Positions 6,022 to 39,348 of a stretch of 47,678 nt of DNA are shown one piece after another. Source of the stretch: a virus; IMG/VR virus record IMGVR_UViG_3300046804_002270, positions 1 through 47,678 of that record, one strand, 5' to 3'. The notes beneath the pieces are model-generated. The model was not told the DNA's origin. It saw nothing but the letters and a program-made list of their open reading frames with translations, and ran no database searches. Position 1 is the stretch's first letter. Each line of letters starts with the position of its first letter. The translations under genes were made by a program, and so were the position numbers.

Positions 6022-6028
6022 ATAAATA
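6022..6028 (+). promoter_or_regulatory. T4-late-type promoter element
   Basis: ATAAATA matches seven of the eight bases of the T4 late consensus TATAAATA. It lies 34 nt upstream of the tail-fibre ATG, which also has an AGGAG ribosome site at 6051-6055. Confidence 0.65.
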
Positions 6029-7268: not shown

Positions 7269-7303
7269 TAATCAACTAATTTTTGTTCGTGGTAATATAG
7301 GCA

Positions 7304-7310
7304 ATAAATA
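7304..7310 (+). promoter_or_regulatory. late-type promoter, leaderless geometry
   Basis: ATAAATA ends five bases before the ATG at 7316. In T4 late promoters transcription starts about six bases after the last A, so the mRNA would begin at the start codon. No Shine-Dalgarno sequence is present. Confidence 0.6.
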
Positions 7311-7315
7311 TTGCC

Positions 7316-8053
7316 ATGAACAATATCTCTGGCATAGTTAATCGCCCCTACATAGATTTACAAAATTACATCGACTTAAAATCTTACGATATGCTCCATT
7401 CGGAGATATGTCGTGGGTTTGCTAAAGCTAGTCATTTAACCATAAACGGTTCACACATAATTAACGAAGGATCTATCAATCCTGGTGATTTTAAACCCCT
7501 ATACGAAGCATATAAAGAGCTACAGGCTCTTCCAGATACTGATGCACTCAAGCAGGCATCGCAAGGACTAAATTACAATCAGTTAACTACCTATCTAAAA
7601 TTTAGTTTAGGTGGTTATGATTTGTATACACGATATGTGTTATTCGAAAATTGCACAGACAAAATAGTCTTAGGAGAAGTTGCTGAATATTTCCCAGGTG
7701 TAATATCATGGATATTAAATCTAAAAGAATTAGGAATATTCTCACACATCGACGGCGCCACATTCTTTTTATTAGAAGCAGGTGGCGTTCCTTTTGAGCA
7801 TTGTGATCCGGCCCCGTCGAAAGAGTCGTTGTCAAGAGTGCCAGAATTCATACATATAAAGACAGATTTAGATAGACCGTTTTATCTAATTGATCCAGAC
7901 ACGAGAGAAAAAACCTATATAACAACAAGAGCTTCTTGGTGGAACGAAAGAGATTGGCACGGTGGTGAACCTATCCTCAAGCCTACATATACCTTTAGAG
8001 TCGATGGAACCTTTACTAACGAATTTAGAGAAAAAATATTAAAAAATGCTTAA
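7316..8053 (+). CDS. Fe(II)/2OG oxygenase, island family A, copy 1
   Basis: A 245-residue protein, the first of three paralogues (with 8046 and 16225). Metal-site residues are visible: H162 and D164 in FEHCDP, the distal H215 in the WWNERDWHGG segment, and R228 in the FRVDG strand. The pattern fits the aspartyl/asparaginyl hydroxylase side of the 2OG family. The shared N-terminal motif NRPYIDLQNYIDL is not part of a standard oxygenase core and probably forms a family-specific lid. It leads the first plus-strand operon of the island and overlaps the next gene by 8 nt. The substrate is unknown. Confidence 0.82.
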   Translation: MNNISGIVNRPYIDLQNYIDLKSYDMLHSEICRGFAKASHLTINGSHIINEGSINPGDFKPLYEAYKELQALPDTDALKQASQGLNYNQLTTYLKFSLGGYDLYTRYVLFENCTDKIVLGEVAEYFPGVISWILNLKELGIFSHIDGATFFLLEAGGVPFEHCDPAPSKESLSRVPEFIHIKTDLDRPFYLIDPDTREKTYITTRASWWNERDWHGGEPILKPTYTFRVDGTFTNEFREKILKNA

Positions 8054-14286: not shown

Positions 14287-14293
14287 ATAAATA
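14287..14293 (+). promoter_or_regulatory. late-type promoter in a divergent region
   Basis: ATAAATA on the plus strand, 30 nt upstream of the ATG at 14324, which has GGAG at 14313-14316. On the minus strand the neighbouring bases read CATAAATT, a weaker copy facing the GTG at 14255. The two form an imperfect palindrome (ATTTATG-CC-ATAAAT) that could fire both ways. Confidence 0.55.
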
Positions 14294-14323: not shown

Positions 14324-15178
14324 ATGGATTACAAATTAGCCGAGAACGGGTGGACCGTTATTATCGACGATTTCAATATGGAACATGCAACGCAAGAAGA
14401 TATCAATTTTATATGCAAATTGATTAGCCGTCACACTTTGGTTGTAATCAAGAATCAGCCAACATTGAGTGTAGAAAGACAACTTGAAATTTTGCACATG
14501 TTTAAAGATCCTTCTCCATTATTCAATCCAGCAGATCAAAACTTTATAGATACCGCAGTCGATCCAGATGGTTTAATTTGTAGAGTGACTGCTGAAAAGA
14601 ATGAAAATGGTAAAACTGGTATTGGTGCTAATCCCGGAGACTTCGATTGGCATGCTAATGTTACATGGCGCAAAATCCGTGAACCGATTATTTGGTTACA
14701 TGGAATTAAAGGTACTGAAGGTTCAACAACAAGCTATAACAATAATGTTTTAACTTGGAAAGACTTACCTAAGATATTCAAAGACACAATTAGAGATTAC
14801 CAATTGATTATCACTGGTGGAGTGCGCCATGATGGTACTCCTATCTTTGCAAGAGATGATGAAAACCGTAACGAAAAATTCAATCATCCGCTAGTTTATA
14901 AAAGTCCATTAACAGGTGTTGAAGGATTATACTTCCCTTACTTACAGGTAAGAGGATTTGTAGGTGTTCCTCAAGACGAAGCTGATGAACTAATCAAATG
15001 GCTTGGCGAATATACTATTCAAGAAAAGTACATTTATCACCATCACTGGCAGGATGGCGACATTGTGTTGGGTGATCAATGGCACGGTATTCACAAGCGT
15101 TGGAAGTTTGTTAACTTAGAAACTAGAGTTCTACATCGCGCAGCCCTTTATTATCCAGAACAGGATTACAGTGTATAA
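14324..15178 (+). CDS. TauD/TfdA-like oxygenase with HxN site, copy 2
   Basis: A 284-residue paralogue of the gene at 9344: same start (ENGWTVIIDDF), same WLHGIKGTEGS and YNNN segments. The ligand region is DWHANVTWR, aligning residue by residue with taurine dioxygenase NWHTDVTFR, so H110 is kept but the metal Asp is N112, with no Asp beside it. The distal His is H257 (GIHKRW), and the Arg is in ETRVLHRAA. The Asn here cannot be explained by a shift in the alignment as easily as in copy 1. First gene of the second plus-strand operon; followed by a radical-SAM gene starting within its end. Confidence 0.8.
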   Translation: MDYKLAENGWTVIIDDFNMEHATQEDINFICKLISRHTLVVIKNQPTLSVERQLEILHMFKDPSPLFNPADQNFIDTAVDPDGLICRVTAEKNENGKTGIGANPGDFDWHANVTWRKIREPIIWLHGIKGTEGSTTSYNNNVLTWKDLPKIFKDTIRDYQLIITGGVRHDGTPIFARDDENRNEKFNHPLVYKSPLTGVEGLYFPYLQVRGFVGVPQDEADELIKWLGEYTIQEKYIYHHHWQDGDIVLGDQWHGIHKRWKFVNLETRVLHRAALYYPEQDYSV

Positions 15179-16241
15179 AGTAGACACAGTATCGATATGC
15201 GAACATTGCTACAGACACGTACCAGCAGTTCGATTCGAGCGTGATGGAGCAATCTGGATAAGCAAGAAATGCAAGTGGCATGGTGAATCTGAACATCTTG
15301 TAGAACCTAATGCTGATTTTTACATCAACTACAAATATCCCAAGCCTTATAATACCACTTACTGTTTAGATATCACTAACAGATGTAATTTAAATTGTCC
15401 TCATTGTTATCAAATACCAGATAACATGAGCAAGGATCCATCTATAGATGAGATTCTTGACATTGCAAAGGCTTGGGACGATGACGGATACGGTGTAGCA
15501 CTAATGGGTGCTGAGCCAACTACTAGAAAAGACCTTCCAGAATTATGTAAAGCTATCCAATCGTTACCAGGAAAGCTTCGCAGAATAATGATTTTAACAA
15601 ACGGTGTTTATCTATCTGACATTGACTATGCTAAACAATTTATAGACATGCCTAATGTACTATGGACTATTGGATTAAATCATCCAGACTACCAAGGCGC
15701 AACTGTTAGAAAGAAACAGATCGAAGGTATTGAGAATTGTTTGAAGCTAGGTATGCGTATTAAGAATGTTAGTTACACACTTGAAACAATAAGTCAACTA
15801 GAATATTGCTTAGAAGAAATACAACAGTTTGGAGAGCGTGTTTGTGATCAATATAGAATACGTGTTGGCACAGATATTGGTAGACATCCTGGAGAAGAAA
15901 AGGTATACCTGTCACAGTTATTACAAATGGTAATTGATATCTGTGATAAAAAAGGATGGACTCACGAGTACGATCCAGAGTATGGAATTAGAGTACATTA
16001 CCCATTGCGGATTAATGGAATATTAGTTAAAATAATTCAATGGCCCGATGTTCGTACAATTGACCTTGAAGAAGATCAAACAGAATCATGGGCAGATATG
16101 CTGCCAGGTAAACCAATAAGTCCATTAGTTCATCAGGTTATCTTAAGAGATGGATTAATAAACAAAAATTTGCCGTTGTATGATGTAGTACCAGAAAAAT
16201 ATCAACGTGCATTTCAGAAAGAAAATGATACACGGAATTAA
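15171..16241 (+). CDS. radical-SAM enzyme with N-terminal zinc motif
   Basis: A 356-residue protein. The 4Fe-4S motif is C72-x3-C76-x2-C79 (CNLNCPHCY), followed by MGAEPTTRKDLP in the place of GGEP. The N-terminus carries C10-x2-C13...C34-x2-H37 (CEHC, then KKCKWHG), a zinc-ribbon arrangement also found in MJ0619-like and tetraether-synthase-type radical-SAM proteins, where it precedes C-C bond or methyl-transfer chemistry. That link is by motif only. GTG start inside the end of the TauD-like gene. It overlaps the next oxygenase by 17 nt. Confidence 0.88.
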   Translation: MYKVDTVSICEHCYRHVPAVRFERDGAIWISKKCKWHGESEHLVEPNADFYINYKYPKPYNTTYCLDITNRCNLNCPHCYQIPDNMSKDPSIDEILDIAKAWDDDGYGVALMGAEPTTRKDLPELCKAIQSLPGKLRRIMILTNGVYLSDIDYAKQFIDMPNVLWTIGLNHPDYQGATVRKKQIEGIENCLKLGMRIKNVSYTLETISQLEYCLEEIQQFGERVCDQYRIRVGTDIGRHPGEEKVYLSQLLQMVIDICDKKGWTHEYDPEYGIRVHYPLRINGILVKIIQWPDVRTIDLEEDQTESWADMLPGKPISPLVHQVILRDGLINKNLPLYDVVPEKYQRAFQKENDTRN

Positions 16242-17028
16242 CAAACAGCCATATTTCGATATGACTCCATACCTGAATATGGATCAATTCGACAAACTAC
16301 AACCCGAGATATTAACAGGGTTCGCACTAGCACGTGAGTATGCTAAGGAAGGCACTTGGATGAAGCCTGGTTTCTCATTTGAAAATATGAGTTACAAACT
16401 TAGTTGGAAACCTATATATCAATCCATGGATGAGTTCATGGAACTGCCTAAAGACGATCCTATATATCAGGCTGGTATAAAATTAATGCCAACAGATTTT
16501 AAAAACTTTCAACAGCGTAACAAGTTTACTCGTTATCTAAAGATGGCAATGGGTTCATATGATCCATACATTTACTATTATTTGTGGGAAGAAGGTTCGT
16601 GGGACGACAGAACAGCACCACGTAAACTTACACCAGAAGCAGAATACTTTCCTAACACAGTTAAGTGGGTCGAAAGCCTAGTAGGTACAGTATTCCAAGA
16701 CATTGGACGTGTTATATTCTTCCACTGCGAAGCAGATGGTATTCCATTTGAACACAGAGACTTAGATGCTAAGAATGGCATTGATGTAGTTAAGCCGCAT
16801 CGCAACGAGTTTATACACATTCGTCCTAACACAAAGAAAGCCATGTACTTATGGGATCCAGAAACAAAAGATAAAACATATCTTAACACTAGAGCCGCAT
16901 GGTGGAACGATGTAGACTGGCACGGTGGCGAGCGAATCATGGAGCAGAGCTATAGTCTACGCATCGACGGTAAGTTCACTGACGAGTTCCGTAAAAAATT
17001 AGGCATTGATCATTTAGAAAGCTACTAA
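16225..17028 (+). CDS. Fe(II)/2OG oxygenase, island family A, copy 3
   Basis: A 267-residue third paralogue of 7316 and 8046. I start it at 16225 because the homology (HGINKQPYFDMTPYLNM) begins here; an upstream in-frame ATG at 16207 adds only six unmatched residues. Metal-site residues: H177 and D179 in FEHRDL, H233 in DWHGG, R246 in SLRIDG; all are kept. The long insert near residues 40-65 and 120-135 differs from copies 1 and 2, pointing to a different substrate or position. It lies between a radical-SAM gene and two smaller oxygenases in the same operon. Confidence 0.83.
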   Translation: MIHGINKQPYFDMTPYLNMDQFDKLQPEILTGFALAREYAKEGTWMKPGFSFENMSYKLSWKPIYQSMDEFMELPKDDPIYQAGIKLMPTDFKNFQQRNKFTRYLKMAMGSYDPYIYYYLWEEGSWDDRTAPRKLTPEAEYFPNTVKWVESLVGTVFQDIGRVIFFHCEADGIPFEHRDLDAKNGIDVVKPHRNEFIHIRPNTKKAMYLWDPETKDKTYLNTRAAWWNDVDWHGGERIMEQSYSLRIDGKFTDEFRKKLGIDHLESY

Positions 17029-17029
17029 C

Positions 17030-17623
17030 ATGAATACATTTAGTACCAAACTTTCTATTGTGTTTGATCTAAACGAAGCTCTTGAATATTATCATACATT
17101 AGAAAACAACTATCAACATTTAAAATGGCAAATGCCTGTGTTAGGGTTTCGTCATGAGGATGAAGAAATCAAAGAAAGCATTACAGGTTGGGCTATACAA
17201 ACTCCTAAAGAAGTCAACGAGCCACACTGTATGTTATATGATACTAACATACAAGGTAGAGAGTTCTATAAAGAAACACCTTGTGCATTTGGATTTGCAA
17301 AAAAACTGTTAGATAAATTTCCAACAGCTTTTAGAATGTATATAACTGTTAATTCTCCAGGCGTTGTAGTAGTGCCACACGTTGACAATGAAAATATTCC
17401 CAAGCGTGTCTACAAAATTATAATCCCTATACAGACTAATAGCAAAGCAACTTGGACTGTCGATGAAGGAACTATACACCTAGACGAAGGATCCGTTTAT
17501 CTCGTTGATACATTAAAGACACACGGAACTCAAAACTATGGAGATACCGACCGTGTACACTTTATGTTTGAAATTTTTGCAGAAGATTTTGATTTAGTAA
17601 GAAGCATGACAGGATCGATATGA
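17030..17623 (+). CDS. small Fe(II)/2OG oxygenase
   Basis: A 197-residue protein. The core strand VVVVPHVDNENIP carries H117 and D119; the distal H165 is in TLKTHGTQNYG and R175 in TDRVHFMFEI. The spacing fits the aspartyl-hydroxylase-like group, with a TWTVDEGTIHLDEGSVYLVD turn between strands. It is not an obvious paralogue of other island oxygenases. It starts one base after the previous stop and overlaps the next by 4 nt (ATGA). Confidence 0.8.
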   Translation: MNTFSTKLSIVFDLNEALEYYHTLENNYQHLKWQMPVLGFRHEDEEIKESITGWAIQTPKEVNEPHCMLYDTNIQGREFYKETPCAFGFAKKLLDKFPTAFRMYITVNSPGVVVVPHVDNENIPKRVYKIIIPIQTNSKATWTVDEGTIHLDEGSVYLVDTLKTHGTQNYGDTDRVHFMFEIFAEDFDLVRSMTGSI

Positions 17624-18144
17624 AGTATATAGGAAATTTTATAGACTGGATTCATGAACAACATATCATGGAACATCTCATATCCTGTCAAGGGGATCGT
17701 ACACCTGTATGGCAACCTGATAGATGGAGTGGAAATCCAACTCTAGAAAAATTTAAAGAGCTAGCTCGTCCTGGATATTCAGATAACAAACATTTCTTTC
17801 ATCAGATGAATCCAGCATCAAAAGAAATGCAAGACTTTAAATTTACTTTACCAGACTTGCCAGAAAAGAGAACTAATATAAATTGGTGGTTTGTTATGCT
17901 GTATCCTGGAGAGTTCCAAGCCATGCATATAGATCCGCAATTAACAGAAGTTGAGAATCCTGTGCGATATACTATGTTCTTACAAGACTGGGAACCTGGA
18001 CATATATTTGTCTACGATGACAAGGTAGCTGCAAATTACAAAGCTGGAGATGTATTTGAATGGAGTGATCCTATGATTGTACACGGTCCTGCTAACATAG
18101 GTTACAACGTTCGATATACCTTACAGATCACTATGTTCGATTAA
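17620..18144 (+). CDS. small Fe(II)/2OG oxygenase, family B, copy 1
   Basis: A 174-residue protein with H103 and D105 in QAMHIDPQ, the distal H155 in MIVHGPANIG and R165 in NVRYTLQIT. It pairs with the minus-strand gene 19216-19707: both have a short N-terminal region, a GHIFVYDDK/GHVFILGET strand and a GDVFEW/GSILKW turn. It ends the second plus-strand operon, and its last 14 bases overlap the end of the convergent radical-SAM gene. Confidence 0.8.
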   Translation: MKYIGNFIDWIHEQHIMEHLISCQGDRTPVWQPDRWSGNPTLEKFKELARPGYSDNKHFFHQMNPASKEMQDFKFTLPDLPEKRTNINWWFVMLYPGEFQAMHIDPQLTEVENPVRYTMFLQDWEPGHIFVYDDKVAANYKAGDVFEWSDPMIVHGPANIGYNVRYTLQITMFD

Positions 18145-19216
18145 GCTGTTCTTCTGTTTTTATAAACGGAGAACCAGTACCACATAATATATTACAAGCA
18201 GATGATGAATGTTCTGCCCACTTTTTGTGAATTAGTTCTTGCCATATAGGCTGTTCCATGATGTGTTTAATTCCATGCTTGTTAGCATCTAGATTATCGA
18301 GCCCACCATATTCTCGAATTAACTGATATATTTCTTGTTGTACTTCTCTAGCAATACCAATGATTGAAGTACTGTCTATTAAATTATATTTTTTGTACAA
18401 TTCAACATCATAATTTGCATAGAGAAACGATCCAATCAAACAGCATGGCATTAAATGTCCAGCAGCATCGATATAAAGTTCTTTGGAATCATAAGCAAAA
18501 CAACTCACATCTATATTCCATGTTTTATAATCTTTCAAATCAACAAACTCTACCGGTTTAATATCACTGCTAATCGGCTGTTCGATGTAATGTGTTACAG
18601 TGCCGGATCTATCAACTACAGGGAATTGTTTTCCAAAACGTTTGCTTGTCTTAACATCAAATGTTTTAAATCCTAACGTGTTGGCAATATCACGAGCAAT
18701 ATCTATTTGGTGTTCATTGTGTTTAAATTTAATGTACATCCAATGCGCATTACCGCCTGCATCCATAAATGCTGTGGCATTACGAATAACAATATCATAA
18801 TCTGTTCCTATTCTATAAAGACTATGAGTATCTTTTAATCCATCTATAGCAAATTCAACCATATGTTCAGCTGGCATTGCATTTGCTAATTCTGTCCACC
18901 ATGCAGTATTTCTAGCACTACCGTTGGTATGGATTTGTACGCTAACAGAACTGTTATCTTTTAGATAGCGACACATGTCAATTAAATCATTGTTTAATAT
19001 CGGATCACCGAAGTCTCCACAAAAATTCACACACTTAATCTGCGCCAATACTTCAGAATCAAATATTTTTTTAAACTGATCTAATGTCCAATCGTTGAGA
19101 GGTAGAGAAGGATTTTCGATGCCGCCATGTATATTTCGCAAACACATAGGGCAGCTTGCTTGACATCTACTTGTGATTTCAACCTGTATATGATGTAGAT
19201 CGTTAAAAGAAAACAT
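18131..19216 (-). CDS. radical-SAM/SPASM-type enzyme, family 1, copy 1
   Basis: A 361-residue protein. The radical-SAM motif is C18-x3-C22-x2-C25 (CQASCPMC), followed by NFCGDFGDP in the GGEP position and an HTNGSA motif. The C-terminal half contains further Cys residues (SCFAYD, PCCLIG, CNILCG) consistent with a SPASM-like auxiliary cluster. The copy at 28771-29856 shares CPMC.RN.HGG, CG.FGDP/CGNYGDP and the YRIGTD segment. SPASM enzymes usually modify peptides or sugars; the substrate here is unknown. It starts in a TAATG overlap with the oxygenase upstream. Confidence 0.88.
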   Translation of the reverse strand: MFSFNDLHHIQVEITSRCQASCPMCLRNIHGGIENPSLPLNDWTLDQFKKIFDSEVLAQIKCVNFCGDFGDPILNNDLIDMCRYLKDNSSVSVQIHTNGSARNTAWWTELANAMPAEHMVEFAIDGLKDTHSLYRIGTDYDIVIRNATAFMDAGGNAHWMYIKFKHNEHQIDIARDIANTLGFKTFDVKTSKRFGKQFPVVDRSGTVTHYIEQPISSDIKPVEFVDLKDYKTWNIDVSCFAYDSKELYIDAAGHLMPCCLIGSFLYANYDVELYKKYNLIDSTSIIGIAREVQQEIYQLIREYGGLDNLDANKHGIKHIMEQPIWQELIHKKWAEHSSSACNILCGTGSPFIKTEEQLNRT

Positions 19217-19707
19217 TAGTATCCTAAGATATGAAACATATACTTGTTACGGAGTCCGCCATTGATACCATTATGCCATTCTCTGTGATGATCCCATTTA
19301 AGAATAGAACCCTGCGGATTATTGACATGATAGGTTTCGCCTAAAATAAAAACATGACCAACCGCCGGTTCACTTATGAATATCGAATACCGTTTTAACT
19401 TACCAAGTTTTAGATATTCTTCTTCGTAATCATCTATATCATAATGATAACCTGTCATATATCCAGGCTCAACACAACTGATCCAACTACGAATAGGAGT
19501 AATTTCTAAATCTCTTGCAATAGTTGCTTGGATATCTTTAGTGTCATAGTAGTTGATCCATCTAACACTACCTGTATTAAAGTTATTACTTTCCCATAAC
19601 TCAACCATCTCTTTGTACTTAGGATTGTTCATGTTCCATCTTTCAGGATTTACAGTTACAATGCTACCGTCTTTGAGATTACTAATTACTGAATTCCAAT
19701 CAATCAT
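19216..19707 (-). CDS. small Fe(II)/2OG oxygenase, family B, copy 2
   Basis: A 163-residue protein. The ATG at 19707 is chosen because GAGGAG lies ten bases before it; an upstream TTG would add six residues. Metal-site residues: H88 and D90 in GYHYDID, the distal H145 in EWHNGING, R153 nearby. It is paralogous to 17620-18144 on the opposite strand. It lies between a kinase-like gene and a radical-SAM gene and overlaps both. Confidence 0.75.
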   Translation of the reverse strand: MIDWNSVISNLKDGSIVTVNPERWNMNNPKYKEMVELWESNNFNTGSVRWINYYDTKDIQATIARDLEITPIRSWISCVEPGYMTGYHYDIDDYEEEYLKLGKLKRYSIFISEPAVGHVFILGETYHVNNPQGSILKWDHHREWHNGINGGLRNKYMFHILGY

Positions 19708-20392
19708 TTGAATGTATCTCCTCAAACAATCTAGGGAATACAGAGTCGGGCCAGAAATTGTTTAGATGCTGCGTTAATGTAATTTTAAAAAACTTCTTGA
19801 AGTCTATTTTTCCATCTTCGGTTGATTCGTCAAATCTATAAGCACCCTCTGGTCCGATTATTTCTTCAATGATTCTACGGTCAATGAATCGTTCACTGTG
19901 TGGAACTACAGAATAATAGTCGATAGTTTTTAATTTACGATCTTTAGAAATATAAAAACAATGAGGATACAAAGACATCTTCCAACAATTTTCTTTTTTA
20001 ATGTCTTTTAAAATTTTGCCTATGTGCTCTTGCCAATTAGGAAGCTCGTGATTTAAATTTCGTTCTGGATCAAAAACTATTTGTGATAGTGTTTCTTTAT
20101 TCCATTCGATGATGATTTTTCTATTTGCTGTATCTATTTCATATACTTGAGGAGTTGAATCTAAATGACTAAACTCTTTTAGGAATCTCACTTCTCTATC
20201 AAAAAACCAAGTAATTACATCTTCTGAAATTGCAGAAGTTTGATTTCTGTAAAGAGGATCAGAACAATAATGCATACACATCATAGTACCTTCTGGATTT
20301 ACTGTGGGTGTATACAATAGATTAGATTCCGATGGATTCCCATTCGGCTGTAATTTAAAATAATAATGCCAATTTGTAGTGTCAATAATCAT
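19700..20392 (-). CDS. degenerate kinase-fold protein (pseudokinase-like), copy 2
   Basis: A 230-residue paralogue of 13566-14255. Shared elements are the start (NPSESNLLY against SPSRNNLIY), LPNWQEH, and the loop MSLYPHCFYIS followed by LKTIDYY. The catalytic-loop Asp and Asn are missing here too, though the DFG-position Asp survives (IDYY). The ATG at 20392 lies in an ATGA overlap with the radical-SAM gene upstream. Two copies in two operons of the island suggest a carrier, adaptor or substrate-holding role rather than phosphorylation; that is inference. Confidence 0.58.
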   Translation of the reverse strand: MIIDTTNWHYYFKLQPNGNPSESNLLYTPTVNPEGTMMCMHYCSDPLYRNQTSAISEDVITWFFDREVRFLKEFSHLDSTPQVYEIDTANRKIIIEWNKETLSQIVFDPERNLNHELPNWQEHIGKILKDIKKENCWKMSLYPHCFYISKDRKLKTIDYYSVVPHSERFIDRRIIEEIIGPEGAYRFDESTEDGKIDFKKFFKITLTQHLNNFWPDSVFPRLFEEIHSND

Positions 20393-21933
20393 AATGCTGT
20401 CCAACTTAATTTTTTATCAATATACTTTTGTACGAACTGTCTAAATTTTAAATCATCTGTATCTACACCTGTGACTTTTTTATCATATATTTCTCGATAA
20501 TCATTTGTTTCGTGGTAGACAAACAATCTATCAGATAAAAACGGATTACATCCTCGCAATCCGATAAAGCCTGCATCGGAATAAAATTCTTTTACAAGTG
20601 TTTCGGCTTGATACCAATCCATGTCATTGTGTTTCCATATAACAATATCATTTCTAGTGCTGCCTACTCCGCCACCTCGAGGAGTTGTAGACTTGAATAT
20701 AACACTGCCTCCGCTGTCTTTTGAAACCTCATAGCCTGGATTTTGTCTTGCTTCTAATTTAACTAGCCCATTACTAACAAGTTCTTTAGTGAACTTACTT
20801 TGGTTAGTAAGTGATTCGTCATAATCAGGTACTTCTAGAATATGTGCAGAAGCACTTTGTCTAGTCCAATAAGTGTTAAGCCACTGTAATGATTGATTCC
20901 AAGACTCTATGCTTTCTCCGGGTATGCCACAAATCATTTGTATGTTTGCTCTATAAAGTTTTGGAGCATGAATATCTGTGTATGCTTGGAAATCCAACAA
21001 GCCTTCTTGTAACTTATCTGGGTCCATGCCCTTACGCACAAGTTTACCAGCTTCACGATTAAATGTTTCAATGCCCATGCTGTGTCCAAGGAACCCTAAT
21101 CTGATATAGGTGTCCCAATGTTCTCGATGTTTAACGACTAGGTCGCCGCGAGCAAATCCACATATCCAAGGATTATAGTTTAATTCATCAACTGCGTCTG
21201 CATACTTCCGTAGTTTCTCCGGACGATCATTAAATGTTTCATCCATAACACGCCAATTCTTAATGCCCCACTTCTCATATCCTGTTTGCATTTGACGTTT
21301 AAATTCTTCTTTGCTTACACTAACGTCCTTGGCCTGTCCTATAATAGGAAAGTTACAGTAAGAGCAACTAAACATACAACCACGTGCTGTTTCAATCTGT
21401 GGACATTCATAAGGCATCATGAAATCCCGTGCTTCGTAGTCTACTAGGTAGTTGTCTAATGGCGCACTCGGATAGTGATCCAACCCTCGTATAACTTTTT
21501 TAACACCAAAAAATCTAGGATCTCTCATCAAGGGTGCGCCTAGTGTTCCTAATAAATGTTTGCATAAGGCAAGTATGGCATTCTCACCGTAGCTGTCTAC
21601 CCAATAGTCTACATGATTAGCTGGAGTTACCAAGGCGTTGTTGCCGCCAACTACTATCGGTATATTAGGATATTCTTCCTTAAGCCATTTAGTAAATTCA
21701 TTTAGGTACGGGCTCCATGGATTTAAAAATGCTGTACCAAAACAAAACATCACAGTTTTATTTGTTGTTCTTGAACGCACAAGCTCTTGTAGTTCGCCAA
21801 GTTTCCAGAATGCTGTAAAGTCTATAACTTCTGCATCCCAATCATTCATTCTCAGAAATGTAGCTACACGATGTGGCCATAATGCTCGCTCCCAGCGTTT
21901 ACCTGTTAGGCTAAAGAATAGTGCATGATTCAT
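20389..21933 (-). CDS. B12-binding-type radical-SAM enzyme
   Basis: A 514-residue protein. The N-terminal ~150 residues form a Rossmann-like domain (IPIVVGGNN near residue 95; SYGENAI) like the cobalamin-binding domain of class-B radical-SAM enzymes, but the DxHxxG cobalamin-ligand motif is not visible, so B12 binding may be base-off or lost. The radical-SAM motif is C186-x3-C190-x2-C193 (CMFSCSYC), followed by a TIM-barrel half with GIETFNREAGKLVRKGMD. Members often methylate, ring-contract or rearrange unactivated carbons. It overlaps both neighbours by ATGA. Confidence 0.88.
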   Translation of the reverse strand: MNHALFFSLTGKRWERALWPHRVATFLRMNDWDAEVIDFTAFWKLGELQELVRSRTTNKTVMFCFGTAFLNPWSPYLNEFTKWLKEEYPNIPIVVGGNNALVTPANHVDYWVDSYGENAILALCKHLLGTLGAPLMRDPRFFGVKKVIRGLDHYPSAPLDNYLVDYEARDFMMPYECPQIETARGCMFSCSYCNFPIIGQAKDVSVSKEEFKRQMQTGYEKWGIKNWRVMDETFNDRPEKLRKYADAVDELNYNPWICGFARGDLVVKHREHWDTYIRLGFLGHSMGIETFNREAGKLVRKGMDPDKLQEGLLDFQAYTDIHAPKLYRANIQMICGIPGESIESWNQSLQWLNTYWTRQSASAHILEVPDYDESLTNQSKFTKELVSNGLVKLEARQNPGYEVSKDSGGSVIFKSTTPRGGGVGSTRNDIVIWKHNDMDWYQAETLVKEFYSDAGFIGLRGCNPFLSDRLFVYHETNDYREIYDKKVTGVDTDDLKFRQFVQKYIDKKLSWTAL

Positions 21934-22595
21934 TCTATAATAAACTCGGTTGGAAGATAGCTTTTTAGATATTCTAATTGATGCTCTGCTATTTTAAACT
22001 TAACATGATCAGCAGAATATTCAAAGTCAGATATAACTTTATTTTTGTTAGCACTATTAAGCCAGGGACTTATGTGATTGTCAAACAGATATCTGGCATG
22101 ATCTAGATTACCCATTTTAGTTTTTATTGTAATTGCTATTGGATTTTCTATGGTATTGTGTTTTAATAACTTTCTAACTACCAACTGAACCCTAGAGCGT
22201 CTACCAAAATTAGCAGCGGTATGATGAAAGCCAGCATTCATATCGTACCATATTCCGTCTTGCTCTAATTTATACATCTGTTCTTGAACCAAGTTAATTA
22301 AGAAACATTCTTCTCCTAGAATGTTTAAATGATATCTATCATCTATATCAGCATGACTCTGATAAGCATGACCTGGATCCAAAATTATAATCCTTGCTTC
22401 GCCTTTGGTAACAGGCAATGAGTTATATAAGGTTTCCCAAACTGTTCCTTTGTACTCTGCTTTTATAACCCAGGGATCGTAAAAGAAATTACCTGTAGGT
22501 TGGTTGATTGTTGTTTTCATTCCTGCTTCGGGTAATGAATTACAAGCATCTCGAAATAGAGATGTATCAACTTTATAATTGGTAGGAGTTAACAT
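21930..22595 (-). CDS. aspartyl-hydroxylase-like Fe(II)/2OG oxygenase
   Basis: A 221-residue protein. Metal-site residues are H81 and D83 in YQSHADIDDRYH, distal H124/H125 in NAGFHHTAANFG and R135 in SRVQLVV, the classic order of aspartyl/asparaginyl beta-hydroxylases. The start at 22595 lies four bases after a TATAAATA box (22600-22607, minus strand) and has no Shine-Dalgarno site, so the mRNA is probably leaderless. First gene of the second minus-strand operon. Confidence 0.82.
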   Translation of the reverse strand: MLTPTNYKVDTSLFRDACNSLPEAGMKTTINQPTGNFFYDPWVIKAEYKGTVWETLYNSLPVTKGEARIIILDPGHAYQSHADIDDRYHLNILGEECFLINLVQEQMYKLEQDGIWYDMNAGFHHTAANFGRRSRVQLVVRKLLKHNTIENPIAITIKTKMGNLDHARYLFDNHISPWLNSANKNKVISDFEYSADHVKFKIAEHQLEYLKSYLPTEFIIE

Positions 22596-22599
22596 GAAA

Positions 22600-22607
22600 T
22601 ATTTATA
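22600..22607 (-). promoter_or_regulatory. T4-late-type promoter, minus strand
   Basis: TATAAATA, an exact match to the T4 late consensus, read on the minus strand. Only four bases separate it from the ATG at 22595. Confidence 0.7.
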
Positions 22608-22623
22608 TGCTACTATTACGAGG

Positions 22624-22630
22624 TTAAATA
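22624..22630 (+). promoter_or_regulatory. late-type promoter, plus strand
   Basis: TTAAATA four bases before the ATG at 22635, the mirror of the minus-strand promoter in the same inverted repeat. It implies a leaderless transcript for the PLP gene. Confidence 0.6.
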
Positions 22631-22634
22631 TTTC

Positions 22635-23486
22635 ATGGAAAGAATTAAGACAGCAACTAGCTATGACGAAAAATGGTTAGAAGTAGAACGTCCACAACCT
22701 TTGGTAGATTCTGTTATTGAACAGTTAATCCAAGATGTTCTATTTGGAAAAATAGACAAAGATATTTCCAACAATGTCTATACCAATTTTAAAAGCGAAA
22801 TGACCGATTGGTTATTTAATAGCACATTGAACACCATACACGGACTCGACAATTTCAATCGTGTGGATATCATTAATGGTTGTACCCAATTTATCGATGC
22901 CATCTACATGAAAGGTCCTGTACAGGTATTGTCGGGCGATTATAGATATCACGAACGGTTAGGATTATCTTATATAAAAGATGTAGGGTCTTTAATTCCG
23001 GGCGTTCCATTGATTATTGCAATGCCGTTTCCTAGCACAGGTGATGTGCATGTTGACATGGAAGAAATATTATATGAAGCGAGAAAAAAAGGTATTGATG
23101 TACATGTGGATGGCGCTTGGTATACTTGCTGCCGCGGAATTAACTTTGATGTATCTCATCCGGCAATTAAGTCAGTCGCTATAAGTTTGAGCAAAGGACT
23201 AGGGCTTGGTTGGAATCGTGTTGGACTGCGATGGACTAGAGAATCAAAAGCTGATGCTGTTACTATCATGAATGATTTTAATATGAATCTTCGAGCTCCT
23301 ATTATGATCGGCTTACACTTCCTACGCAATTTATCTCCGGACTATCTATGGAACAAACACAGCTATAGTTATTATAAGATATGTAAAGATTTTAATTTAA
23401 CACCAACTAATGCAATTTACCTTGCACTAAAAAACAATCAACCCGTTGGACTCAGTCCACTAATAAGATATGTCTCAGAACAGTAA
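22635..23486 (+). CDS. PLP-dependent aminotransferase-like protein (fold type I)
   Basis: A 283-residue protein. The PLP site is visible: D159 in HVDGAWY (pyridine-nitrogen Asp), K187 in SLSKGLGLGWNRVG (Schiff-base Lys) and R195 after it. It is shorter than usual aminotransferases (about 380-420), with a reduced N-terminal arm and C-terminal domain, so it may act as a lyase, racemase or decarboxylase instead. Its mRNA is probably leaderless. First gene of the third plus-strand operon; the following radical-SAM gene starts 17 nt before its end. Confidence 0.75.
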   Translation: MERIKTATSYDEKWLEVERPQPLVDSVIEQLIQDVLFGKIDKDISNNVYTNFKSEMTDWLFNSTLNTIHGLDNFNRVDIINGCTQFIDAIYMKGPVQVLSGDYRYHERLGLSYIKDVGSLIPGVPLIIAMPFPSTGDVHVDMEEILYEARKKGIDVHVDGAWYTCCRGINFDVSHPAIKSVAISLSKGLGLGWNRVGLRWTRESKADAVTIMNDFNMNLRAPIMIGLHFLRNLSPDYLWNKHSYSYYKICKDFNLTPTNAIYLALKNNQPVGLSPLIRYVSEQ

Positions 23487-24732
23487 AACATTTTGTATGC
23501 ACCCGTTTACAGGGCTGGCAACACGAGAAGATGGTGCAATCCAAGTGTGCTGTCGTAGTCATCCTATTGGATTTATTGACAAAGAAAAGTTAGAAGATAT
23601 ATGGAACAATGATACCATGCGTCGAATTCGTAGACAGGTATTGTCTGGCGAACGTCCGCCAGAATGCGAACCTTGTTTTAGTTTAGAGGACCAAGGTGTT
23701 GAAAGCCTACGACAACGACACATTGCTGGAGTTATACCAGAAGCACGTATTAATCTGTATCCAAAGGCATTAGAGAATCTACACCCAGAGATGACAATGC
23801 CGTTTGAGATTCCTACGATGGAACTTAAACTAAACAATCTGTGTAATTTAAAATGCCGTATGTGCCACCCAGGGGATAGTACCAGCTGGAATGATTGGGC
23901 AGAAATTAAAGATTTTTACAAAGGTTCAGGACAAGTTATTTTCAACCTAGTAGAAGAACATAACTTAGAAAACAAACCATTGCTTGATAAGTTTGAAGAC
24001 AATCCCAATTGGTGGGCTAGCCTAGAAAAGAATTTGCCACATTTCCGTCGTGTAGAGTTTGCTGGTGGCGAACCGTTGATGGATCCTCAGCATTACAGAA
24101 TTTTAGATATGTTAGCACCATATGGGCATCAGATAGAAATCAAGTATGCTACTAACTTAACTACCTTAGGCAAGAGCAATCGTACCATTTGGGAATACTG
24201 GCCCAAGTTTAAGAGTGTGGCTGTTAATGTAAGCATCGATGGTATTAGAGATAGTTACGAATATATTCGAGGTAATGCGCATTGGGGCGAACTTATAAAC
24301 AATATCAAACAAATACAAACAATACCAAACATCAGTCGTATTGTTGGTGCTGTGGCTGTACAGGTAAGTAACGTTCTTGTGCTTGACAAAATGATAGAAT
24401 ACTTTTTAAATGATTTAGGAATTGTATTTTATACCAATATGGTCAAGTACCCCAATGTACTTTCAGCTCAGGTATTGCCTAAGCCATTAAAGGCGTTAGC
24501 CATTATGCGTCTTGAAGAAGTCAAGCAGCGTGTGCCAGAGTTCAAATATGTTAAAGCTAATCCTATCTTATTAAATCTTACCATAGAACAAATTAACGGA
24601 GTAATCAATTATATTAACGCTGTGGATCAAAATGACAAATGGGAAGATTGTGTAGAATTTAACCGTAGATTAGATCAAACACGAGATCAAAGTTTCACAG
24701 ATGTTACTAAAGAATTCAAAGACTATGTTTAA
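23470..24732 (+). CDS. radical-SAM enzyme with N-terminal SPASM-like Cys domain, copy 1
   Basis: A 420-residue protein in which Cys motifs come before the radical-SAM core: C9 (FCMHPFTGL), C27-C28 (VCCRS), C66-x2-C69 (CEPCF), then C125-x3-C129-x2-C132 (CNLKCRMC) and FAGGEPL. The leading FC.HPF...G....CC pattern is the SPASM/twitch auxiliary-cluster motif, here at the N-terminus. A 461-residue paralogue lies at 26587-27972. It starts within the PLP gene and overlaps the next gene by 8 nt. Substrate unknown. Confidence 0.88.
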   Translation: MSQNSKTFCMHPFTGLATREDGAIQVCCRSHPIGFIDKEKLEDIWNNDTMRRIRRQVLSGERPPECEPCFSLEDQGVESLRQRHIAGVIPEARINLYPKALENLHPEMTMPFEIPTMELKLNNLCNLKCRMCHPGDSTSWNDWAEIKDFYKGSGQVIFNLVEEHNLENKPLLDKFEDNPNWWASLEKNLPHFRRVEFAGGEPLMDPQHYRILDMLAPYGHQIEIKYATNLTTLGKSNRTIWEYWPKFKSVAVNVSIDGIRDSYEYIRGNAHWGELINNIKQIQTIPNISRIVGAVAVQVSNVLVLDKMIEYFLNDLGIVFYTNMVKYPNVLSAQVLPKPLKALAIMRLEEVKQRVPEFKYVKANPILLNLTIEQINGVINYINAVDQNDKWEDCVEFNRRLDQTRDQSFTDVTKEFKDYV

Positions 24733-25624
24733 AGTTACTAGTGCGTGGCCTCATCAAGATCAGATTAAAGTCGAATGGAATCTTGGCAAACGCTGTAACT
24801 ACGACTGCACATATTGTCCTTCATCGATACACGATAACTTTAGTCCTCATACTGATATCAATATATTAGAATCAGCAGTTGATCGTTTATGCGAATTAGA
24901 TAAACCATTACGCATCAGCCTAACAGGCGGAGAACCCTGTGTACATCCTGACATAGAAGATTTTTTAGATTATCTAAAGCGTAAAAATATATTCTGGGTC
25001 AACTTAACTACAAATGGCACTAGAGGTTATCGTTGGTATTTAGATAATGAGATGTTCTTCAATCATCTTGTATTCAGCCTACACTTTGAAAAACTAGATC
25101 AATGGGTACGAGTATTTGATACTATTTTAAAATTTTACGATGAAACAGAAAGAGATTTCTTTGTCAATGTAATGGCGCATCATGATCATATGGATCATGT
25201 TAGAACTGTGGTAAAGAAATTTGATGAGGTTGGAATAAAATATGCCATTCGTAGAATACGATGGACTGAAGGGGATCATAATATATTTGATGATCTAAAA
25301 TACGAAGGCAAAGATTTAGAATGGATATTGTCTAAAGACGCAACAGTAAAACCCAATTGCCGAGTTGACAACGAACAGGTTATTCATGCTAACGACATTA
25401 TTAAAAAACATCTAAATCAATTCAAGGGTTGGCAATGTAACGCAGGTATAGAAAGCCTAATGATAAATTGGGACGGTGAAGTACATCGTGCGACTTGTAG
25501 AGTCGGTGGTAGTCTAGGGAACATCTACAAAGGAACGTTTGGTGTTCCTAGCGATCCAGTTATATGTACTCGAGATTTCTGTACCTGTGCTGCCGATATA
25601 CCGTTAACTAAAACTTTTAGTTAA
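24725..25624 (+). CDS. radical-SAM enzyme, family 2, copy 1
   Basis: A 299-residue protein. I start it at the ATG at 24725; the frame extends upstream to 24701, but only inside the previous gene. Motif C24-x3-C28-x2-C31 (CNYDCTYC), then SLTGGEPCVHPD and TTNGTRG. C-terminal Cys residues (QCNAG, TCRVGG, CTCAAD) may bind an auxiliary cluster. It ends PLTKTFS, and the same final bases encode LTKSFS on the other strand in the convergent paralogue. Related copies: 25604-26590 and 31195-32172. Confidence 0.87.
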   Translation: MFKVTSAWPHQDQIKVEWNLGKRCNYDCTYCPSSIHDNFSPHTDINILESAVDRLCELDKPLRISLTGGEPCVHPDIEDFLDYLKRKNIFWVNLTTNGTRGYRWYLDNEMFFNHLVFSLHFEKLDQWVRVFDTILKFYDETERDFFVNVMAHHDHMDHVRTVVKKFDEVGIKYAIRRIRWTEGDHNIFDDLKYEGKDLEWILSKDATVKPNCRVDNEQVIHANDIIKKHLNQFKGWQCNAGIESLMINWDGEVHRATCRVGGSLGNIYKGTFGVPSDPVICTRDFCTCAADIPLTKTFS

Positions 25625-26590
25625 GTGAGTTTCTGGAATACAACTACAGCAGTCTATCTGACATTTTGCCTGTTTAAATTCTGGATCAAACACGTCAATA
25701 AAATTTTTATCTAAGATATTATATCTTTGATCAAACAAAGGTTGACTGCAAGAACCTTGTATGATACCATCCCAGTTTATATAGATAGAATCTAATCCTA
25801 TATTACAATTCCAACCTTTAAAATCAGTCCAACCTTTGTTAATGTATGTGTTAGATGTGGCCATTACAGGAAGGACTTTATCTTCTAACCATACAGCACT
25901 TTCAAATATTTTAATAGATCCATCAAAGATCAAATTGTAGTTTTTAAGAAACCATGTTAGATTAGGCAATCGTTTCAATTCTTTAGACATATAATTCTTT
26001 TGAATTTTAGTGTAAGGAAGATAACCTACAACTTCTTTGGCTAATACAAACCAAGGATACTTGCTAGACGTTTTCATATACTCAACTGCTGCTACACAAT
26101 CATCCCATCTAGTAGGATCCATTAATACCAATACTGTTACTTTTTTATTTAGAGAATATAATGTGTCAGCAACAGCAATCATGTGATCAATATTGCTTTC
26201 TTTAACATGATGTGACAATGTTGCATTGTCAATTAAATGTCCATTTTCTTGCCACCAGCGCAGAGTTCTAGATCCATTTGATGTAACACTTATATAAACA
26301 TCATTAGATTTTTTTATTTCCGAAATAACTTTATGCAGGTCTTTCCAGACTGTGGGTTCACCGCCGCCGATGTCTAGATGGAATTTGGTTTTTCCTAATT
26401 TGATAGTGTATTGATTAAACAGATGCTGTAGATTAGCTATTACAGTATCAGTGTCAGTTGGTGATTTAAAATTTCCTTCATTTGACCCTGGGAAACAATA
26501 GTCGCATTTGAAATTACATACATTGCTAGGGCTCCATCTTATATTCAAAATATTAGATTTAGAAAGAGATTTTATTTTAATTGGTTTCAT
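25604..26590 (-). CDS. radical-SAM enzyme, family 2, copy 2
   Basis: A 328-residue paralogue of the convergent gene at 24725. Motif C25-x3-C29-x2-C32 (CNFKCDYC), then DIGGGEPTVWKD and VTSNGSRTL. C-terminal features shared with copy 1 are WNCNIGLDSIYINWDG, a late CCSC cluster and an LTKSFS end. It is the final gene of the third minus-strand operon and overlaps the plus-strand copy by 21 nt. It starts in an ATGA overlap. Confidence 0.87.
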   Translation of the reverse strand: MKPIKIKSLSKSNILNIRWSPSNVCNFKCDYCFPGSNEGNFKSPTDTDTVIANLQHLFNQYTIKLGKTKFHLDIGGGEPTVWKDLHKVISEIKKSNDVYISVTSNGSRTLRWWQENGHLIDNATLSHHVKESNIDHMIAVADTLYSLNKKVTVLVLMDPTRWDDCVAAVEYMKTSSKYPWFVLAKEVVGYLPYTKIQKNYMSKELKRLPNLTWFLKNYNLIFDGSIKIFESAVWLEDKVLPVMATSNTYINKGWTDFKGWNCNIGLDSIYINWDGIIQGSCSQPLFDQRYNILDKNFIDVFDPEFKQAKCQIDCCSCIPETHLTKSFS

Positions 26591-27972
26591 AGCAGATGTT
26601 TTAATTCGGGAAATATCGACTTGGCATCTGTACCTCGAATTAAATCTAAATTAGCAACATACTCTTTAAAGTCCGGCAATAGGTGTGTGTGATCTCCCGC
26701 CTGTATAAATTTTAAAATGCCTTCCCAGCGTTTCCAACCGTAGGGATTATCTTTCCAAAAGTTATCATCCTGTCTATAATTGTCCCATAACCATTGTTTG
26801 AAATCTGCAAACTGTTTTACAATTTCATCTTTATCTTCTTGTGGTAATATTCTAGCACTAAGGAAAGTAGGAATATAAAGCAAATGCAAATTAATAATGC
26901 CGCCGCCTGTTTCATATTCGTCAAGTGCAAACTTATTGATCTTTTTAAAGCCTTGGCTCAATTTCCATTTAGCAAAATCAATAATATGTTTGACATTGAA
27001 TACTTGTACAGCACAGGCTATCGCGCAATGAATATTATCTGGAGCATTGTCCATTAACCATAAACTACGTTCTATGTCAGCCCAGTCTGTGGGATATCGT
27101 ATGTAATGATTTCGTTCCATTAAAGCATCAATACTAAATGCATAGCGTACCTGTTTGAATTGACTCCACACATTAATAATATCTTCATTAACGAATATTC
27201 CGTTGCTGTTATATCGCAGGCTGATATTTTTAGCGTAACCACGTTTAATGATTTCGTCTAAGAAGCGTCTGTGTTCTTTGATCATTAAAGGTTCACCACC
27301 AGCAAAGTACAGTTGTGTGATGTTTGGTATTTGCTCAAAGACGTCGTCCCAGAACTCCGGTTTTTCGTACCAAACATTATTAAATTCTTCTTTGGCAAAT
27401 CCTATCTGGTTTAATACTATTGTGCTTTTAGTTTTTTCAACTAACTTATCATAGTCTTGCAACCAACGACTGCTGTCGTGCGGACTACACATCACGCATT
27501 TTAAATTACAGGTATGTCCTAGTCGCAAATCCAAATATCGTATAACAGGCGGCACAGCACCTGTTGAATCAGTATCAGCGATAAGTTTATTAAAATCTAA
27601 ACCATCACGATTCCATTCATACATTTCCCATAAGCGTTTGCTGACTACTCCATTGCTTTCTTCTTCAAAACATTTTGTACAGCTGGCGGGTATCTTTCCT
27701 TCTAACATTGTTTTACGAACACTGCGCATATACTGATTATTAAATGCTTCTAACGGAGTTTCGCGTCCAAAGTTAGCGGGCAAGCCATCTTCTTTTTTAA
27801 CCAAGCCCACGGCATAGTCTCCGGTTTGAGCTCCGCTGGCATTAGTAACACAGCAAAGTCTAGCATCCCCATTAGGGCGTGTTGCCAAGTGTATCCAAGG
27901 CAAAGCACAAAAGGTGGGAGACCCTGTACGTTCTTCTATCAGTTTGATATACGTTTTAATCTTATTAGTCAT
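26587..27972 (-). CDS. radical-SAM enzyme with N-terminal SPASM-like Cys domain, copy 2
   Basis: A 461-residue paralogue of 23470-24732: the same leading Cys set (C22 in FCALPWIHLA, C40-C41, C98-x2-C101) before the radical-SAM core C155-x3-C159-x2-C162 (CNLKCVMC) and FAGGEPL. It has an extra ~40 residues before the core and a different C-terminus. The conserved segments SIDAL/SIDGI and QVFNV/QVSNV show common descent. It is translationally coupled to the SGNH gene upstream (overlap 8 nt) and to the radical-SAM gene downstream (ATGA). Confidence 0.88.
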   Translation of the reverse strand: MTNKIKTYIKLIEERTGSPTFCALPWIHLATRPNGDARLCCVTNASGAQTGDYAVGLVKKEDGLPANFGRETPLEAFNNQYMRSVRKTMLEGKIPASCTKCFEEESNGVVSKRLWEMYEWNRDGLDFNKLIADTDSTGAVPPVIRYLDLRLGHTCNLKCVMCSPHDSSRWLQDYDKLVEKTKSTIVLNQIGFAKEEFNNVWYEKPEFWDDVFEQIPNITQLYFAGGEPLMIKEHRRFLDEIIKRGYAKNISLRYNSNGIFVNEDIINVWSQFKQVRYAFSIDALMERNHYIRYPTDWADIERSLWLMDNAPDNIHCAIACAVQVFNVKHIIDFAKWKLSQGFKKINKFALDEYETGGGIINLHLLYIPTFLSARILPQEDKDEIVKQFADFKQWLWDNYRQDDNFWKDNPYGWKRWEGILKFIQAGDHTHLLPDFKEYVANLDLIRGTDAKSIFPELKHLL

Positions 27973-28771
27973 TGTCCCACATCTCGGAAATGATATCAGA
28001 ATAATTTAAAATTCTTCCATCTTCATAATTATCAATGGCATTCTTAATAAAATCAAATACCATATTGTTTTTAATACCTTCTAGGTGATTTGGCCTATTG
28101 TCTATCTTAGGATATTGAAAAGTGTTTTCTGTATCACCGGCTACACTTAAACTGTTAAGAGCAGGTCTGATTTCTACACCGTGTTTCCAAGCATAATCAT
28201 AATGAACATTGCTAGGATGGAATCCAGAGAAGTCCCAACTGCTGGGATTACCAAATGCCCAGAAATGAATAATCTTTGTAGTAGAAGGGAATCTCGGCAA
28301 TACATTATTATCAATGTATTCTAAAATTGCTCTATGTTCAAATTCTTCTTTTTCTTGATCATACAAATGCAGATAAAATTGTTTAGCTGCTTCCCACAAT
28401 TCTTTGGTAAACGGATTTGTTTTTCCAGGATACTCTTTTTCAAACCATTTTTCTTTTTCCGGATTGTAACCTGCAATACCAGAACTTACATGAATCGAAC
28501 GAGCAACTCGATTAAACAATCTACCAGGATTGGTCCAAACAAATACACACACGTCTGGTATTGACTGAGACATAATCAATGGCTGCAATTGAATTAAAAA
28601 TGCATCCCATACCGACGACCCGCCATAGCCAAGATTAACGATGTTGGCGTTGTAATAATCTCTTGTCTGTTCAATATAGGTAAGATATCCGTGCTCTATG
28701 CTATGAGGATTGTTTAATTTCGTACAAAAGCTATCACCAAAGAAGCCGACAGTTTTTATTTTGTCGTTCAT
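27965..28771 (-). CDS. SGNH/GDSL-type hydrolase-like protein, copy 1
   Basis: A 268-residue protein with GFFGDSFC near the N-terminus (Ser nucleophile), NLGYGGSSVWDA (Gly block), a block with CVFVWTNPGR in the Asn position, and RPNHLEG near the end giving the His. This fits the SGNH esterase/acyl-hydrolase family; deacylation or acyl transfer on a sugar or peptide is likely. A second, more divergent member lies at 30437-31195. It starts in a TAATG overlap with the radical-SAM gene. Confidence 0.78.
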   Translation of the reverse strand: MNDKIKTVGFFGDSFCTKLNNPHSIEHGYLTYIEQTRDYYNANIVNLGYGGSSVWDAFLIQLQPLIMSQSIPDVCVFVWTNPGRLFNRVARSIHVSSGIAGYNPEKEKWFEKEYPGKTNPFTKELWEAAKQFYLHLYDQEKEEFEHRAILEYIDNNVLPRFPSTTKIIHFWAFGNPSSWDFSGFHPSNVHYDYAWKHGVEIRPALNSLSVAGDTENTFQYPKIDNRPNHLEGIKNNMVFDFIKNAIDNYEDGRILNYSDIISEMWDND

Positions 28772-29856: not shown

Positions 29857-30446
29857 TATTTTTTTCCAATAATCATCCAACGTGTGTAAAGAGGCAATTC
29901 TAATTCACCTGCCCACAATACGTTGATGCCACACTGTGTTTTGAATTCTTCAAGACTTTTTGCTATTCTGATATGCTCGGGAATTTCATAATTATTACTC
30001 TGTAATACTAACAAGCTGTTGTCAGACATTTTTGATTTCCATGCTTCAAATTGTTCTTGTGTAATATGTTCACAACTTGTATTGATGATTACATCTGCAT
30101 CGCTAGGAGTGTCGCACATATCAGCAGTAATTGCTTGAAACTTGCCTACCATCTCCTCGATTTTATTCATGTTAATTGCAATAGGTTCGCAAGTTGGATC
30201 AATGTCAATGCTACGAATACTTAATACAGGTACATCGCTTTGAAACAGTAAACTAGCTAATGTTCCTACCCAACCACCGTATATGTCAACCGTGACAAAT
30301 TTCTTAACATGTTTTCTTAAATTTTTAATCAACCACTGTTTGCTCTTTAATTGTCCTTGCCAGAATGCATCCATGGTACGCATAGGATCTGGGCTTTGTC
30401 TTACTGCCTGCATCCAGTGATGAAAATGATCTAAATTTATTTGCAT
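29856..30446 (-). CDS. class-I SAM-dependent methyltransferase-like protein
   Basis: A 196-residue protein. Motif I is TVDIYGGWVGTLA (residues ~52-64), motif II SIDIDPTC, then ITADMCD and DVIINTSCEHIT as motifs III and IV. This is a full, compact Rossmann methyltransferase. Motif I is DxYGGxxG rather than the usual ExGxGxG. The acceptor is unknown. It overlaps the SGNH-like gene upstream by 10 nt and the radical-SAM gene downstream by 1 nt. Confidence 0.8.
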   Translation of the reverse strand: MQINLDHFHHWMQAVRQSPDPMRTMDAFWQGQLKSKQWLIKNLRKHVKKFVTVDIYGGWVGTLASLLFQSDVPVLSIRSIDIDPTCEPIAINMNKIEEMVGKFQAITADMCDTPSDADVIINTSCEHITQEQFEAWKSKMSDNSLLVLQSNNYEIPEHIRIAKSLEEFKTQCGINVLWAGELELPLYTRWMIIGKK

Positions 30447-39341: not shown

Positions 39342-39348
39342 TTGGCGG

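Follow-up and report, generated by a model that had tools for sequence, protein, structure and literature searches.

Late promoters of bacteriophage T4, which involve gp55, gp33 and gp45, have a -10-like TAAATA core and no -35 element (PMC2988020; PMC1524935). The T4 late box occupies positions -13 to -6 (PMC1524935), so +1 is the sixth base after the box; with five nucleotides between box and start codon, this base would be the A of the ATG. In T4 itself, no TATAAATA lies within 12 nt of a gene's ATG (the distances are 13-52 nt), and late mRNAs have leaders with a Shine-Dalgarno (SD) sequence. At T4 gene e and similar genes, early read-through transcripts form a hairpin that prevents their translation, and the late promoter lies within its 5' arm (PMC3014915). 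Late promoters of phage phiKZ have the sequence TATG, with transcription starting at the G (PMC4666361). Leaderless phage mRNAs exist, such as those of lambda cI, transcribed from PRM, and P2 gene V, which are single genes read by host sigma-70. We found no earlier description of leaderless late transcripts in T4-like phages, although the literature searched did not include subscription papers (Syn9 among them), and this is not proof that there is none.

The DNA analysed here ("the window") is the whole of IMG/VR record IMGVR_UViG_3300046804_002270, 47.7 kb (47,678 nt) with 38% GC. It is from a freshwater virus of bacteria, and the record is a fragment of the genome; gene content includes tail-fibre-like, endonuclease, thymidylate synthase, many radical-SAM, Fe-S, superoxide dismutase (SOD) and tRNA genes. 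A blastn search of the window against cultured phages gave no match. Relatives are frequent among viral contigs, the largest being 355 kb, and we examined six large ones in full (G001-G005 and G009), calling gene starts with a simple longest-ORF script rather than a trained gene finder. Each of the six has a gene for a gp55-family late sigma factor (phrog_234, E<=1e-24); no gp55 gene is present in the 47.7-kb window fragment, such that gp55 is shown in the relatives only. For the sliding clamp gp45 family there was one weak match (E=0.003) among 16 relatives. In terminase and capsid trees, those of the six relatives that could be included group with the cultured jumbo phages PA5oct and 121Q, apart from T4, Syn9 and HTVC008M. 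The phage IscU is nearest to proteins of Beta/Gammaproteobacteria (80-89% identity), from which we infer that the host is probably in that group.

The window and its relatives share with T4 the -10-like TAAATA core without a -35 element, an AT-rich stretch after the box, late genes downstream and, in the relatives, a gp55 homologue. They differ in that many genes have the box fused to their start codon, and the first T of TATAAATA is not conserved. The TAAATA core meets the description of a T4-type late promoter, a TATAAATA-like -10 element upstream of late genes, while the full TATAAATA is rare. As a motif in its own right, the full T4 consensus was rejected, being below expectation in the window (2 versus 5.3 expected); it is found at only one of the six boxes closest to start codons (22605, minus strand) and at one unrelated site at 41076, and TAAATA is therefore the right description. 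The relevant window features, in which the gap is the number of nucleotides between box and ATG and each box is a putative late promoter, are:

6023-6028, plus strand: late box with ordinary leader; gap 34, SD AGGAG, gene 6063
7283-7323, plus strand: inverted repeat around the following box; in read-through RNA the AUG would lie in a 16-bp hairpin (-19 kcal/mol)
7305-7310, plus strand: TAAATA late box; gap 5 to ATG 7316, preceded by C; predicted RNA start at the A of the ATG
7316-8053, plus strand: ORF of 245 aa, no family match; predicted leaderless
14288-14293, plus strand: late box with ordinary leader; gap 30, SD GGAG, gene 14324
21930-22595, minus strand: ORF of 221 aa, no family match; predicted leaderless
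22600-22605, minus strand: TAAATA late box with full TATAAATA; gap 4 to ATG 22595
22625-22630, plus strand: TAAATA late box; gap 4 to ATG 22635
22635-23486, plus strand: ORF of 283 aa, no family match; predicted leaderless
31195-32172, minus strand: radical-SAM gene
32183-32188, minus strand: TAAATA; gap 10 to ATG 32172
39315-39349, plus strand: intrinsic terminator (GC stem and T run) directly upstream of a late box
39350-39355, plus strand: TAAATA late box; gap 7 to ATG 39363; A at the fifth base after the box
39363-40469, plus strand: tail-fibre-like protein with C-terminal matches to phage fibre families
44009-44014, minus strand: late box with leader; strong SD AAGGAGG, minus-strand gene start at about 43985; divergent from the predicted-leaderless SOD gene
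44031-44036, plus strand: TAAATA late box; gap 5 to ATG 44042, preceded by T
44042-44611, plus strand: Fe/Mn superoxide dismutase; predicted leaderless
45422-45709, minus strand: ORF of 95 aa, unknown; predicted leaderless
45714-45719, minus strand: TAAATA late box; gap 4 to ATG 45709
45744-45749, plus strand: late box with leader; gap 32, weak SD AGGA, gene 45782; divergent from the predicted-leaderless 45709 gene

A preliminary description of the window had claimed that TAAATA boxes lie 4-7 bases before the ATGs at 7316, 22635, 22595 (minus), 39363, 44042 and 45709 (minus), and all six are present. Its claim that these starts have no SD site also held, with the caveat that SD-like 5-nt strings are found upstream of 22635 (GAGGT) and 44042 (AAGGA); at least about 13 nt separate these from the ATG, a distance too large for typical SD sites. 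That genes 6063, 14324 and 45782 have normal leaders was likewise borne out by their box gaps and SD sequences. The broader claims, that transcription begins T4-style about six bases past the box with the mRNA starting at or near the ATG, and that leaderless and leadered modes are used side by side, are supported by the tests described below (the gap peak, a register-specific pyrimidine, ATG-only starts, background SD frequency, restriction to T4-late homologues, orthologue conservation and recurrence in a cultured phage), with RNA 5' ends remaining unmapped. One refinement is that the sites with gap 7 (39363) and gap 10 (32172, minus) are more likely to have leaders of about 3 and 5 nt, respectively, than to be leaderless. 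The near-leaderless minus-strand gene at 32172, for which spacing predicts a very short leader with only a weak 4-nt SD match, and the leadered minus-strand gene at about 43985 were absent from that description.

TAAATA is scarce in the window, with 25 occurrences versus 69 expected from dinucleotide shuffles, and six of the 25 are positioned 4-7 nt before a called gene start, where 0.12 would be expected (P=3.9e-9); at this spacing, no more than two copies occur for any of the 14 permuted hexamers. Counting box-to-ATG distances across the relatives, we found a peak 4-5 nt before the ATG in each of the six large genomes, with 18, 28, 20, 17, 4 and 13 gene starts versus 0.3-1.7 expected from the permuted-hexamer rate. 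When every hexamer was scored at every distance upstream of 3273 candidate starts in the six gp55-bearing relatives and the window, the strongest signal was TAAATA at gap 5, above AAGGAG at gap 6. These proximal sites span 119 protein families (family-weighted, 25.7 have gap 4, 62.0 gap 5, 5.8 gap 6 and 14.1 gap 7), and so do not reflect one duplicated gene. The box and its spacing are thus shown. A genome with 38% GC contains many A/T hexamers, and the boxes could in principle be there by chance, but TAAATA is depleted overall and yet reaches 10-70 times expectation at this spacing, whereas permuted hexamers do not; the spacing statistics already refute this explanation and leave it almost no room.

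The base that precedes the ATG depends on the gap. At gap 5, 65 of 68 protein families have a pyrimidine in this position and none has G, compared with a pyrimidine in 15 of 34 families at gap 4 (P=8e-9 versus gap 5) and in 44% of ATG starts elsewhere. This register is observed, and from it we infer, as the simplest rule, that RNA polymerase starts at the fifth base after the box if that base is a purine, and otherwise at the sixth. A gap of 4 puts the A of the ATG at the fifth base, and the base before the ATG is therefore free; at gap 5 a pyrimidine is needed at the fifth base, because otherwise the A of the ATG would not be the start. If U before AUG were simply favoured in translation, the bias would be the same whatever the gap. 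Among the 19 gap-7 families, 14 have A as the fifth base, and bases six and seven are pyrimidines, a pattern that predicts a 3-nt leader; 39363 belongs to this class, and its mRNA, inferred from sequence alone, probably begins with ACU rather than with the AUG. The gap-7 and gap-8 classes, and the A at the fifth base in the former, could be taken to mean that the promoters are real but that starts are shifted by a few nucleotides throughout, giving short leaders of 1-5 nt instead of leaderless mRNAs. We consider this very unlikely, since gaps 4 and 5 dominate (25.7 and 62 of the 119 family weights) and gap-5 sites exclude those bases from which a 1-nt leader would result. The phiKZ promoters are similar in that a very short element lies near the start, and T-A-T-G is frequent at gap-5 starts here; they differ in using another RNA polymerase and starting at the G of TATG, whereas the element described here is TAAATA, used with gp55, and its predicted start is the A.

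Start codons at gaps 4-5 comprise 105 ATG, 1 GTG and 1 TTG, from 3273 ATG and 2486 GTG or TTG candidates. SD sequences of at least 5 nt precede 3.8% of starts with a proximal box, close to the background of 4.5%, versus 36% of genes with a distal box and 30% of other genes. Two marks of leaderless mRNAs, absence of an SD (background level only, in the proximal class alone) and near-exclusive use of AUG, are therefore shown. The low SD frequency partly follows from the box occupying the SD position, a design that leaves an SD no room. That the mRNA 5' end coincides with the start codon is predicted from spacing and base bias, no 5' end having been mapped. In common with lambda cI and P2 gene V, transcription (here by prediction) begins at the A of the AUG, there is no SD and only ATG is used; the difference is that the window clade would have a whole class of late-regulon genes of this kind, read with a phage late sigma factor (gp55 dependence being inferred), rather than single genes. 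We also considered Bacteroidetes-type non-SD translation as the cause, and regard it as unlikely because other genes here use SD sequences strongly and the phage IscU is nearest to Beta/Gammaproteobacteria.

An alternative is that TAAATA near the ATG is not a promoter but an AU-rich translation-initiation element on a leadered mRNA. AU-rich sequence before AUG can aid non-SD initiation, and U before AUG can pair with initiator tRNA. However, the same box with the same flanks also precedes genes that have an SD, at a distance of 15-45 nt that rules out a role as a ribosome site; the bias towards pyrimidines changes with the gap; terminators end directly before the box; and the proximal box is absent from T4-early homologues. 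We therefore regard this reading as very improbable, and favour late promoters that make leaderless mRNAs.

Homologues of T4 late genes have a proximal box in 9 of 44 cases, and homologues of T4 early genes in 0 of 55 (P=4e-4). The box is proximal at the large terminase gene gp17 in 4/4 genomes, at gp13 in 3/4 and at gp25 in 2/6, while at gp18 the box is in every case distal (31-34 nt) and accompanied by an SD, indicating that both modes serve core late genes; the gp10 box is also distal. Intrinsic terminators are found within 60 nt upstream of 19/131 proximal boxes, 10/276 distal boxes and 16/1322 other starts. At the proximal boxes, the median distance from the end of the T run to the box is 4 nt, and in 17 of the 19 it is 1-7 nt, leaving no room for another promoter. 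The association of proximal boxes with late genes and with terminators is thus shown. At 39315-39363 in the window and upstream of gp17 in G001-G004, terminator, promoter and start codon fit within about 50 bp; since nothing else fits between terminator and ATG at gp17 and 39363, transcription of these genes would, barring read-through of the terminator, have to start close to the ATG.

These genomes are very compact, and it could be argued that the late promoters are real but that the leaderless start is a by-product of packing, with the promoter there mainly for genes further along the operon, and the first AUG translated poorly, or translated from read-through RNA by coupling to the upstream gene. 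Consistent with this, divergent leaderless promoter pairs lie 26-39 nt apart in the window (22595/22635, where the boxes at 22625-22630 on the plus strand and 22605-22600 on the minus strand are back to back within a 39-nt intergenic region), in G002 and G003 and in HTVC008M, and about 21% of proximal starts have a co-directional gene no more than 10 nt upstream, where translation of read-through RNA by coupling is possible. Compaction alone would not require the exact register that is selected (pyrimidine only at gap 5, gap 6 rare), directly upstream terminators remove read-through for many of these genes, and single-gene cases such as SOD keep the arrangement across distant orthologues. On balance, packing is an unlikely explanation, and translated leaderless mRNAs remain our preferred reading. 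As a separate observation, boxes with leaderless spacing directly follow the stop codon of gp20 or gp17 at G002:139984, G002:229126, G003:234975 and G004:197122; these would be promoters inside structural operons, and translational coupling on read-through RNA is also possible there.

We searched relatives for orthologues with a box 3-9 nt before an in-frame ATG. The proximal box is kept in 70/71 orthologues of the minus-strand gene at 45709, 20/21 of 39363 (all with gap 7), 62/89 of 44042 (SOD), 11/20 of 7316, 2/2 of 22635 and 2/3 of 22595 (minus). Five control genes have a proximal box in 0/13, 0/18, 0/72, 0/44 and 3/76 orthologues. For gene 6063, 11/13 orthologues have a box within 100 nt upstream, and it is never proximal. 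Conservation of the arrangement is thus shown.

The 7316 start resembles T4 gene e in that the AUG is in a read-through hairpin whose 5' arm the late RNA would lack; the predicted leaderless RNA would therefore leave the AUG unburied, unlike read-through RNA. The T4 late RNA keeps its SD leader, whereas that of 7316 would have none. Hairpins of comparable strength, varying in sequence and register, occur in about half of 12 orthologues of 7316; L081, L083, L087, L088, L093 and L098 each have a strong one in this position that is built from different sequence. Because the registers differ, no pair-by-pair covariation count stands behind hairpin conservation in this family. A read-through hairpin as a general feature of proximal starts was rejected, there being only a mild enrichment (AUG fully paired with upstream RNA at 31% versus 20%), and since the effect is small over all families we view the 7316 hairpin as a local addition.

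The arrangement recurs in cultured phages. Pelagibacter phage HTVC008M has 11 gap-5 gene starts, 10 of them with the pyrimidine, and the nine in the annotated stretches we examined coincide with GenBank starts; the genes include those for tape measure, DNA end protector, head completion, baseplate and tail completion. In Pelagibacter phage Mosig (6/6) and Methylophilales phage Melnitz (3/3), all gap-5 sites have the pyrimidine. P-SSM4 has two gap-5 sites (P=0.07), and Syn9, S-PM2, 121Q and PA5oct have no significant TAAATA excess at proximal spacing; PA5oct, which has the closest cultured gp55, has 2 versus 1.5 expected. HTVC008M groups with Syn9 and not with the freshwater clade, which implies more than one origin or loss of the design. 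Late-promoter prediction with a cyanophage method failed in pelagimyophages (PMC7029224), and boxes fused to start codons may explain this.

We propose that the TAAATA boxes act as gp55-type late promoters like those of T4, in which the box would be a -10-like element for RNA polymerase carrying a phage late sigma factor. Polymerase would start at a purine 5 or 6 nt past the box, and at six window genes (subject to the gap-7 refinement above) and about 100 genes in the six relatives this purine would be the A of the ATG, giving an mRNA that starts with AUG and would be translated as a leaderless mRNA without an SD. At other late genes, the same box 15-45 nt upstream would give an ordinary SD leader. 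This is the likely and best reading, reached without 5'-end data: gp55 dependence in the window phage, the exact RNA 5' ends and leaderless translation are all inferred from sequence, and the host and its capacity for leaderless translation are unknown. As a suggested benefit, about 14 bp would suffice to make a gene late-expressed, and upstream read-through RNA would be poorly translated. If the proposal is true, one class of T4-like phages, which is abundant in both freshwater and marine environments, drives part of its late programme, terminase included, as leaderless mRNA; the rule TAAATA-N4-Y-ATG would then fix start codons and late genes in uncultured phages, and cultured HTVC008M would be a testable system for leaderless translation.

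Genes for ribosomal protein bS21 are frequent in phages with leaderless late promoters, being found in 7/12 fragmentary relatives (G001, G002, G005-G008 and G012) and in HTVC008M, Mosig and Melnitz; bS21 was not found in T4, Syn9, S-PM2, P-SSM4, 121Q or RaK2. Since bS21 is also present in PA5oct, Atu_ph07, Phosso and Vibrio 2.275, where the leaderless signal is slight or absent, we reject it as the sole or sufficient cause. A bolder reading, which we consider doubtful, is a late translational switch in which phage bS21 retunes host ribosomes late in infection to favour phage mRNAs with a 5' AUG, while read-through RNAs, lacking an SD and blocked by terminators or hairpins, stay silent.

Several other features of the window are of note. 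SOD, an IscU-like protein (44732) and an IscA/HesB-like protein (45105) are encoded in a row at 44042-45425, as an Fe-S and oxidative-stress cassette. About eight radical-SAM proteins cluster at 15171-32172, accompanied by 2-oxoglutarate-oxygenase-like proteins (phrog_24590 matches) at 9344 and 14324. Lastly, at 2179-2191 a TAAATA box ends 7 nt before a tRNA-Gly gene (2192-2265), and a start at A2190 would give a tRNA-Gly precursor with a 2-nt 5' leader.
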